DNA of 64,000 nucleotides from Paludisphaera rhizosphaerae (GTDB lineage Bacteria > Planctomycetota > Planctomycetia > Isosphaerales > Isosphaeraceae): the NCBI RefSeq assembly GCF_011065895.1, contig NZ_JAALCR010000008.1, positions 124,001 through 188,000 on the forward strand. Direction: 5' to 3'. Position numbers and translations under genes: made by a program. Under the pieces are notes generated by a model. That model was not told the origin of the DNA. It saw only the letters and a program-made list of their open reading frames with translations, and ran no database searches. Positions 17,490-19,455 of this stretch are shown here, piece by piece (position 1 is the stretch's first letter; each line of letters begins with the position of its first letter).

Positions 17490-18503
17490 TCACATGCTCC
17501 GGTCGACGGCCTCGGCCACGCGGCGGCACTGGGCCATGAGCTGGGCGAAGGCGGCCGGGGTGATGGTCTGCGCTCCGTCGCTGGCGGCCTTCTTGGGATC
17601 CTCGTGGACCTCGATGATCAGCCCGTCCGCGCCGGCGGCGACCGACGCCTTGGACATCGCCGCGACGAGGCTCGCCTTGCCGGTGCCGTGCGAGGGGTCG
17701 ACGACGACGGGGAGGTGCGACTTCTCGTTGAGGTAGGGGACCGTGGCCAGCGGCAGGGTGAAGCGGGTGTGGTCCTCGAAGGTGCGGACGCCGCGCTCGC
17801 AGAGGATGACGTTGGGGTTGCCGCGGTCGAGGATGTATTCAGCGGCCAGGAGGAACTCCTCGATCGTCGCGCTCATCCCGCGCTTGAGGAGCGTCGGCTT
17901 GCCGGAGTCGCCGACGGCCTGGAGCAACTGGTAGTTCTGCATGTTGCGGGCGCCGATCTGGAGGACGTCGGCGTACTCGGCGAGCATCGGCACGTGCTCG
18001 GGCGCCATGACCTCAGTGACGATCGCCAGACCGGTCTCGGCCCTGGCGGCGGCGAGCATCTTCAGGCCGGCTTCCTTGTGGCCCTGGAAGCTGTAGGGGC
18101 TGGTCCGGGGCTTGAACGCCCCGCCGCGGAGGCCCGTCGCGCCCAGCTCCTTGAGCTTGCGGGCGATCGAGACGATCTGCTCCTCGTTCTCGACCGAGCA
18201 CGGCCCGGCGATGGCCGCGATCTTCTTGCCGCCGATCTCCAGCCCCAGCGCCTTCACGACCGTTCGGTCCTTCTTGACCTCGGCCGACGCCCGCTTGTAC
18301 GGGGCCATGATCGGGAGGACCTTCTCGACGCCCTCGCCGACTTCCAAGGTCTCGACGAGCCCCGGCCGCTCCTGGCCCAGCGCGGCGACGACCGTCTGGT
18401 GCTCGCCCTTGATGACCTGCGGAGTCAGCCCTAGAGAGGAGATTTGCTGCGACATGGTTTCGATCTGCGCCCCGGTCGCGTCAGGTTTCATCACGACGAT
18501 CAC
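17490..18503 (-). CDS. aroF: 3-deoxy-7-phosphoheptulonate (DAHP) synthase, Thermotoga type
   Basis: First enzyme of the shikimate pathway: condenses phosphoenolpyruvate with erythrose 4-phosphate. The 337-residue protein matches the Thermotoga-type class Ibeta layout. A ferredoxin-like/ACT-like N-terminal regulatory domain (residues 1 to about 70, [15 protein letters not shown]) is followed by the TIM barrel with [62 protein letters not shown] and EVHEDPKKA. The metal ligands Cys (AGPCS), His, Glu and Asp are present. In T. maritima the extra domain mediates tyrosine feedback inhibition. The gene follows a long leader with a candidate attenuator (18569-18750), suggesting control by both transcript level and allostery. 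Confidence 0.96.
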
Positions 18504-18568
18504 GGTCGACGCCCTTTCTGTGGTAATGGGCCGACGGCCCGAGTTTGAATGGACTTGCTCACGAAACG

Positions 18569-18604
18569 AAAAAAGCCCCGGTCCTGAAGGTCAGGTCCCG
18601 GGGC
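18569..18604 (-). terminator. Attenuator terminator in aroF leader
   Basis: On the minus strand a hairpin GCCCCGG...CCGGGGC with an inner CCTGA/TCAGG stem is followed by six T residues and ends 66 bases before the aroF start. Nothing but a leader peptide lies upstream, so a terminator here is best explained as conditional. The 5' arm (18604-18592) can instead pair with CAGGTCGCCGGGC at 18671-18659 inside the leader reading frame: six pairs, a one-base bulge, then five more. That would form an antiterminator. Confidence 0.8.
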
Positions 18605-18636
18605 CTTGGGTATCTGCTTGTATGGGAGTGGGGTTC

Positions 18637-18750
18637 TTAGGAACAACCTCCGCACACAGCCCGGCGACCTGATGCAGCACTGGTAAAGAACCAGTACCGC
18701 CAGCCCAGATAAGAGCCCGTAAAGTAGGTCGCAAACAGGCCGAACGTCAC
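18637..18750 (-). CDS. Aromatic-rich leader peptide of aroF
   Basis: A short frame of 37 residues ending at TAA 18637-18639, 133 bases before aroF. Ten of its first 22 residues are aromatic (Phe, Tyr or Trp), culminating in WRYWFF. The codons TAC TGG TTC TTT sit in a small hairpin (ACTGG/CCAGT, about 18698-18676) just before the candidate antiterminator strand. This is what a ribosome-stalling leader for Phe/Tyr/Trp supply looks like. The GTG at 18748-18750 is a tentative start with only a weak upstream site. The frame stays open to GTG 18961-18963, so a longer leader of 108 codons is possible. Confidence 0.6.
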   Translation of the reverse strand: MTFGLFATYFTGSYLGWRYWFFTSAASGRRAVCGGCS

Positions 18751-18825
18751 GCGAGGGAACCCCAAATGTCTCGACTCGAACTCTGATCTTCGATCGTCGT
18801 ATCGAACCGTCTGAAGAAGGCGAAT

Positions 18826-18970
18826 CCGACCGGACCCGGGTGTGGACCGGGTCCGGTCGAACCTAGCCTTTGGTAGGCTTCGGAATATGCGGCTTGCCCG
18901 ACGGCAAACCCGTCGGCTGCCGTTAGGCGAGCCGCCTCTGGTTGTCACTACACACGCGATCACCTCCTTT
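18826..18970 (-). promoter_or_regulatory. Upstream part of aroF leader: strong SD, mini-ORF and hairpins
   Basis: At 18958-18970 the minus strand reads AAAGGAGGTGATC, a full match to the anti-Shine-Dalgarno end of 16S rRNA. Seven bases after its GGAGG core, GTG 18953-18955 opens a 10-codon frame ending at TAA 18923-18925. A GTG inside the site itself (18961-18963) opens the long frame that continues into the aromatic peptide. Downstream lie a CCGACGG/CCGTCGG hairpin and a perfect 12-bp GACCGGACCCGG/CCGGGTCCGGTC hairpin (about 18826-18860). The layout suggests a structured, translated leader; which start is used is unknown. Confidence 0.45.
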
Positions 18971-19179
18971 TCGTTCTAGCCTCCCCGGGCCCGCGGGAGT
19001 CCAGCCTCGTCGCGGGAGCGGGCTCTAGTCCGTCGCGCCACGGTAGCGCGATCCGAGAGTCGAGGGGCGCGTGTCGCCGATCTCGACACGGTCACTCTAT
19101 CCAGGACGACCCACAGGATCAACAGGCTGGATCGGAAACCGCACCCATCAACGGACGCGGCGGTGGGCGATTCATCGTC

Positions 19180-19455
19180 TCATTCTTCGCGGTAGCGCCC
19201 AGCCAGCCGGGCCCAGACTTCTTCGAGCGTCGAGAAGGCGTCGGGGTTCGCCTCGGCGTGAGCGAGGCGCTGGTCAAGCAGCGCTTTTCGTTCGTCCGAC
19301 AGTTCCTCGCCGTTCGCCAGCTCGTGATGGAGGTCGGCGAGTTGAGTCTTCAGCTCGTCCAGCGACTCCCCCTGAGTCCAATGATCGGGGAAGTCCTCAA
19401 GGTAGCCGAGGAAGCCATCCCCGTCCTGCCAGTAGACGAACTTCAACGGGGGCAT
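19180..19455 (-). CDS. HicB-like protein with addiction-module-like C-terminus
   Basis: A 91-residue small protein. The N-terminal half (FVYWQDGDGFLGYLEDFPDH followed by TQGESLDELKTQLADLH) matches the HicB-type partial RNase H fold found in type II antitoxins. The C-terminal half (ERKALLDQRLAHAEANPDAF then STLEEVWARL) resembles the unrelated short addiction-module antitoxin family, an odd combination. No HicA-like toxin lies next to it. The stop is 12 codons into a gap before other genes, and a strong AAAGGAG precedes the ATG, 15 bases after the DUF1552 stop, so it may be cotranscribed with that unit. Orphan regulatory HicB proteins are known; antitoxin function is not shown. Confidence 0.72.
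   Translation of the reverse strand: MPPLKFVYWQDGDGFLGYLEDFPDHWTQGESLDELKTQLADLHHELANGEELSDERKALLDQRLAHAEANPDAFSTLEEVWARLAGRYREE

Follow-up and report, generated by a model that had tools for sequence, protein, structure and literature searches.

A candidate ribosome-mediated transcription attenuator with an aromatic-codon leader upstream of aroF in planctomycetes

DAHP synthase is the entry step to phenylalanine, tyrosine and tryptophan. The trp and phe attenuators of proteobacteria contain control codons, an antiterminator and a terminator that share strand 3, and a strand 1:2 helix. For aroF in Corynebacterium glutamicum, an attenuator was proposed with a leader containing Phe-Tyr-Phe, according to an excerpt of PMC4046766. 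The uORFC-13-1 motif located before aroF in Acholeplasma is a candidate derived from 24 sequences, and the same source, in the portion consulted, attributes a hypothesised attenuation mechanism to Escherichia coli aroF (PMC8632094). The rnTrpL/trpL of Sinorhizobium meliloti encodes a leaderless leader peptide that starts at the AUG of the transcript, as stated in part of PMC10117765. Planctomycete leader genes were counted statistically in PMC4833913, whose main text does not contain the word aroF. No described planctomycete aroF attenuator was found among the open-access papers searched, in agreement with a preliminary description of the present locus, which knew of no such case.

We analysed a 64,000-nucleotide stretch of the Paludisphaera rhizosphaerae genome (the window), in which aroF and its upstream region lie on the minus strand. 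The putative regulated gene (17490-18503) encodes a DAHP synthase with an N-terminal ferredoxin-like domain, as judged by NCBIfam and Pfam matches (NF006421, 5.9e-144; TIGR01361, 3.1e-115; also PF00793 and PF18152). It is preceded by a 37-aa leader peptide ORF (18637-18750; GTG at 18750-18748, TAA at 18639-18637; MTFGLFATYFTGSYLGWRYWFFTSAASGRRAVCGGCS), the stop of which is separated from the aroF GTG (18503) by 133 nt (18636-18504). The preliminary description had singled out this peptide, and its coordinates were confirmed. F, Y or W account for 10 of its first 22 residues, and the control codons comprise five F, three Y and two W within the 26 codons that precede the RRA tail. The peptide is unique in the window: among 91,922 stop-free 22-codon stretches in six frames, only seven overlapping stretches, all from the leader, contained nine or more F/Y/W. 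Neither an evident Shine-Dalgarno sequence at the leader nor a promoter for it was found in the window.

The leader RNA contains the parts of a switch. A codon hairpin (H1; ACTGG-TTCTTTA-CCAGT, 18679-18695) spans the last aromatic codons, which had been described as sitting in a hairpin of their own. Strand 2 (CAGGTCGCCGGGC, 18659-18671), the 5' half of an antiterminator, lies within the leader ORF and pairs with 18604-18592, as the preliminary description had it. That segment is strand 3 (GCCCCGGGACCTG, 18592-18604), which is both the 3' half of the antiterminator and the 5' arm of the terminator, as indicated by folding and covariation. Strand 4 (CAGGACCGGGGC, 18586-18575), followed by six Ts (18574-18569), forms the 3' half of the intrinsic terminator (18569-18586), as indicated by folding energy and covariation. 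The 32-nt terminator hairpin has a predicted energy of -23.5 kcal/mol, bearing out the earlier claim of a strong terminator with six Ts at 18604-18569; it was missed by a simple consensus scan, presumably owing to the discontinuous stem. The predicted fold of the leader RNA ending at strand 3 contained the strand 2:3 pairing, and the predicted fold of the full-length leader contained a strand 1:2 pairing.

We propose that this region is a ribosome-mediated transcription attenuator through which aroF responds to the supply of charged aromatic tRNA, a reading to which we assign a probability of roughly 0.86. We infer leader translation, ribosome stalling, the direction of the response and the role of the codon hairpin, as follows. 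When charged tRNAs are plentiful, the ribosome would pass the F/Y/W codons and continue to the leader stop; with the ribosome over strand 2 (18671-18659), strand 3 would form the terminator (18604-18569) together with strand 4, and transcription would end short of aroF. If Phe, Tyr or Trp runs short, the ribosome would stall at the aromatic codons, leaving strand 2 free to pair with strand 3, so that no terminator would form and aroF would be transcribed. The codon hairpin may serve as an RNA polymerase pause that keeps the ribosome and the polymerase in step.

Of the 400 aroF relatives found, the loci of the best 80 were fetched; two of them (L025 and L062) had no gene start, leaving 78 loci and the window usable. 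A comparable aromatic frame was present in 24 other Isosphaeraceae-type loci, and upstream regions of this type shared the same order of aromatic codons (GWWWSWAFT-like), codon hairpin, strand 2, stop and terminator. All 25 Isosphaeraceae-type leaders contained F and W codons, and 24 contained Y codons. A covariance model of the architecture (R1) matched 35 of 45 family genomes in one place each, extra matches falling on the other strand at that place, and had no match in the other 10. Wherever the leader loci reached far enough, aroF lay downstream (28/28, window included), and two more of the 30 ended at contig ends. Conservation of the leader frame in relatives, on which the preliminary description had made its reading depend, was thus observed. 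The leader in a genome of the window's genus (G030) was the same as that of Paludisphaera soli (L029).

Covariation was examined in two alignments, one (A1) of 22 of the 25 Isosphaeraceae-type sequences, with L008, L023 and L027 omitted, and one (A3) of 31 distinct sequences, which includes L008, L023 having no match at threshold and L027 lying outside the search. In A1, H1 covariation was 0.518 versus 0.213 in shuffled alignments (0/500 shuffles) and the antiterminator score was 0.102 versus 0.072 (4/500), with shuffles that ignore relatedness here and below, so that related sequences can beat them without any structure. In A3, which was fitted to a model containing H1 and therefore favours it, 89.7% of the H1 cells were paired and four of the five pairs had changes on both sides; the H1 loop differs in length by whole codons in L026 and L029. 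The antiterminator had 95.1% of its cells paired and both-side changes in 3 of 12 pairs, with 0 of 500 shuffles as good on percentage paired or on score, and its covariation within the family appears modest, four cells having changes on both sides. For the terminator helix, 89.5% of the cells were paired and 4 of 12 pairs had both-side changes (0/500 shuffles on score). Slid versions of all three helices had fewer paired cells and lower scores than the true register.

The pairings thus covary, and the 1:2 / 2:3 / 3:4 logic invoked in the preliminary description stood in part: the 2:3 and 3:4 helices covary, but a conserved strand 1:strand 2 helix was not detected across the 31 sequences (mean z -0.18; 2/31 below -2). 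A strand 1:2 pairing can be constructed for the window and for four of its congeners, with z from -0.5 to -1.8, which is not above chance. Because strand 1 is not conserved, the codon hairpin stands in place of the 1:2 helix.

The stalled and the terminating ribosome were placed by means of ribosome footprint sizes. Strand 2 lies 16 nt after the first base of the last aromatic codon in 17 of the 31 sequences, 19 nt after it in six, 18 nt in one and 4-10 nt in seven. A ribosome stalled 16-19 nt before strand 2 would just leave strand 2 free. The leader stop lies 13 nt past strand 2 in 13/31 and 19 nt past it in 15/31, so a terminating ribosome would reach no further than the 3' end of strand 2, which is the part met first by strand 3. 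This limited overlap and the seven short distances of 4-10 nt tell against the attenuation reading. In leaders of other families, the spacing was 11-12 nt in 12 of 29, and strand 2 begins at the leader stop codon in L041, L051 and L053, which is nearer the classical arrangement.

Recurrence in other planctomycete families was scored by fixed criteria, which asked for six or more F/W/Y among 12 codons, together with a stop no more than 35 codons away and a terminator downstream. Of the 75 aroF upstream regions that measured 430 nt or more (the window's among them), 39 had all three features and 44 passed on aromatics alone, compared with 0 and 2, respectively, of 177 control ORFs of at least 200 aa, mechanically picked and uncurated, from the same loci. 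None of the 33 other long ORFs within the window had them. The figure of 39 is a lower bound, since the criteria miss clear cases (L010, L015, L016 and L030). Phylum-wide loci fetched after the criteria were fixed, taken as the 30 best matches to one aroF minus the window and one short contig, passed in 18 of 28 cases (19/28 on aromatics alone). A further set of new loci from the class passed in 5 of 8; it was drawn from 19 of 30 loci examined, of which one was too short and ten were duplicates of earlier loci. The criteria failed in 36/75, 10/28 and 3/8 aroF regions, which counts against the attenuation reading. Passing loci of the later sets carried 11 family labels besides the window's (12 in all), and seven of these loci, with five family labels, come from other classes of the phylum. 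Among the Gemmataceae-type genomes listed, an aroF of this type was found at threshold in 12 and not in another 12, and 41 further genomes did not match.

The leaders of other families are diverged in sequence, for example MTRTYWRYFWFSFTCLGGRAGGCA (L065), MANKFWYYFWFSFTRPGSGAGGCA (L048) and MARYFLAYYRFWFYFTPPVRGVVGGM (L047), each followed by a terminator, and ranged from 19 to 48 aa in the 28 leaders measured. Leader starts were set by eye, following the aromatic frame, with 28 leaders per test, L081 being replaced by L060 in the frame test. F/W/Y codons made up 27.7% in frame versus 8.7% and 12.0% in the other two frames, the frame having been chosen for being aromatic. Strands 2 and 3 were diverged yet complementary, at p <= 0.05 versus shuffled leaders, in 20 of 29 other-family leaders, which were hand-picked as loci with both leader and terminator present, with some leader limits set by hand, and include two near-identical pairs (L077/L081 and L034/L036). 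In the later sets, the alternative pairing reached p <= 0.05 in 12/18 and 3/5 leaders; it was no better than in shuffles in 9/29, 6/18 and 2/5 other-family leaders. The shuffles in the other-family pairing, promoter and strand 1:2 tests kept base composition only. Since strand 2 must resemble strand 4, strands 2 and 3 that diverge yet stay complementary are just what a switch between terminator and antiterminator calls for. Directly observed are the parts, their repeated occurrence upstream of aroF, the covariation of the three helices and the spacing.

Outside Isosphaeraceae, 15 of 28 leaders had a sigma-70-like -35/-10 pair ending 5-9 nt before the leader ATG, as in L082 (TTGACA-N17-CATAAT-6 nt-ATG). 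The shuffle expectation was 0.03 for the full pattern and, for the -10 alone, a mean of 0.48 with a maximum of 4 in 1000. The position of this predicted promoter at the leader ATG suggests that these 15 leaders are leaderless, with aroF as the next gene. The pattern was absent from the window leader, and a weak promoter pattern was present in 7 of 21 other Isosphaeraceae-type loci, not in the same placement.

The preliminary description had also stated that no gene lies upstream of the terminator to be terminated. This is not entirely accurate, as a conserved small RNA/mini-ORF unit, here called element B, is present at about 18982-18827 on the minus strand. It contains an extended Shine-Dalgarno sequence (AAAAGGAGGTGATC), a stretch that we take to match the 3' end of 16S rRNA, and a 10-codon mini-ORF from GTG 18955 to TAA 18923 (MCSDNQRRLA). 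By eye, the stop lies in a hairpin loop and is followed by a second hairpin and then by a G+C-rich hairpin; the last hairpin (18859-18827) is without a proper T tract in the window. The ORF has 9-16 codons across planctomycete copies, and of 79 regions upstream of aroF at least 39 matched the element B pattern.

The terminator might accordingly be assigned to element B or to another upstream transcript, insulating aroF from it, with the aromatic ORF being incidental. This would suit the imperfect last hairpin of element B in the window, its position immediately upstream in loci of the Isosphaeraceae type and in several from Gemmataceae, and the finding of no promoter between it and the window leader. 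However, in three Gemmataceae loci (L034, L036 and L038) element B has its own terminator and lies upstream of a separate aromatic leader with a second terminator. In the 15 loci where a promoter sits at the leader ATG, no element B pattern was seen (up to 900 nt upstream examined), yet the terminator is still present, leaving nothing else in the transcript to terminate. The aromatic frame and the antiterminator pairing, moreover, are both conserved. We regard insulation as a very improbable account of the terminator.

From its distribution, element B itself looks like a small gene in its own right, which in some families lies next to aroF. Of 246 planctomycete genomes, 23 were matched by a model built on the copies linked to aroF, and a model to which distant copies were added matched 91 of 244 with exactly one copy each, under strict filters and in genomes partly overlapping the earlier set. 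In the 15 of 22 distant genomes for which both places are listed, element B and aroF are either on separate contigs or over 1 Mb from each other. By eye, three distant copies precede an apparent nuoA, and a run of at least five Ts occurs within 80 nt after element B in 9 of 22 copies. In L129, L130 and L142, GAGGATCACCTCGATCC is located just after the mini-ORF hairpins and could sequester the element's own ribosome-binding sequence. In L020, L024 and L028, element B lies directly before aroF and no aromatic leader was seen; its terminator ends 42-43 nt before aroF in L020 and L024.

The Rfam model CC2171 (RF01867), a Caulobacter sRNA, scored 24.4 bits at element B in the window and 37.2 bits at the best planctomycete copy, under the gathering cut-off of 75 bits. 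It matched element B in 9 of 17 loci at E <= 0.5 and in 0 of 10 others at E <= 0.01. In the controls, a second place in the same genome scored 23.7 bits and matches occurred in 6 of 14 control genomes, which makes kinship of element B with CC2171 a lead only. The RF01867 consensus contains an in-frame 22-codon ORF ending in ..KALSA-stop right after GAAAGGAGGUGAUCCAGUG, the same ribosome-binding stretch as in element B, and CC2171 may, to go by this consensus, be a gene with a tiny ORF instead of a non-coding RNA. We also entertain, tentatively and as the less probable case, a two-stage aroF leader in Isosphaeraceae and part of Gemmataceae, in which element B would be read through into the aromatic attenuator. 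If so, two inputs, a general translation signal and the charging of aromatic tRNA, would be combined at aroF.

In tnaC-like logic, the nascent peptide and not uncharged tRNA stalls the ribosome. An arrest peptide of this kind, binding free Phe, Tyr or Trp or another ligand in the exit tunnel, might explain why the ORF runs on beyond the aromatic codons into a partly conserved RAEGG-like tail. Across families, however, the order and length of the leader vary widely while the aromatic content is kept. At strand 2, the residue preceding the conserved Arg varies (R/H/F/P/C/Y/L/S/D), whereas the Arg codon is CGG in 31/31 sequences, so that the constraint on strand 2 is probably on the RNA rather than on the peptide. 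We consider an arrest peptide highly unlikely. Less probable again is that the ORF is a small protein-coding gene, for an aromatic-rich small membrane protein, that precedes aroF by chance: an open aromatic frame does recur across many species, but its product is 19-48 aa long and poorly conserved in sequence, and the covarying alternative pairing overlaps the 3' end of the ORF. Control of the terminator by a ligand-binding riboswitch or a T-box, which its position before an amino-acid gene might bring to mind, can be given hardly any credence, as no Rfam family reached gathering score in the whole window, a permissive scan of 18480-19200 returned only CC2171 and C4, both far under cut-off and outside the leader, and the Rfam T-box model did not recognise the window leader.

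Elsewhere in the host genome, a second DAHP synthase copy (contig C56) is 53% identical to aroF, and no aromatic leader was seen by eye in the intergenic region before it. An attenuator was seen neither before ilvB nor before two trpE-like genes of the same genome, a weak negative, since for the latter the inspection was confined to the upstream end of the open frame. These absences count against the attenuation reading. Within the window, the next ORF upstream (19455-19180, minus strand, 91 aa) had weak, below-cut-off matches to TIGR02574 and PF09720, which are addiction-module components. Downstream of aroF, at 17396-17300, an inverted pair of TGCCATGGCCACGCTTGTCGTGG-like and CCCACGACAAGCGTGGGCATGGCACC sequences looks by eye like a repetitive palindrome, and a 146-aa Lys/Ala/Pro-rich ORF at 16844-16404 (minus strand), with PAPKKAAAKKPAV-like repeats, resembles histone H1-like tails by eye.

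Attenuation requires translation in step with transcription. Planctomycetes have an unusual cell organisation, and segregation of transcription from translation has reportedly been proposed for Gemmata. An attenuator before one gene in many planctomycete families would offer a simple genetic test of coupling in the phylum; the leader occurs in Gemmataceae MAGs, L034, L036, L038 and L049 among them. If the attenuation reading is true, the switch is a candidate for the principal control over entry into aromatic amino-acid synthesis in planctomycetes. One switch would read Phe, Tyr and Trp codons jointly, with natural variants that have or lack a leaderless start.

Like the proteobacterial trp and phe attenuators, the planctomycete leaders have control codons and a strand 3 common to antiterminator and terminator. 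Unlike them, they are without a conserved strand 1:2 helix and carry the control codons in a hairpin of their own, and in Isosphaeraceae strand 2 lies inside the leader ORF. The leaderless start suggested for 15 of 28 leaders outside Isosphaeraceae resembles that of S. meliloti trpL, as far as the consulted part of PMC10117765 describes it; there, the system is a trp attenuator with trpE, and the window leader is without such a promoter. With the uORFC-13-1 motif, in the text consulted of PMC8632094, the locus shares a uORF with at least one Phe codon followed by a terminator and aroF, but the Acholeplasma motif is a different one from another bacterial group. The C. glutamicum aroF system, in the excerpt of PMC4046766, likewise couples a DAHP synthase gene to a short aromatic-codon leader peptide and a proposed attenuator. 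It belongs to another phylum and has F-Y-F, whereas the planctomycete leader has runs of F, Y and W and comparative support for three helices.
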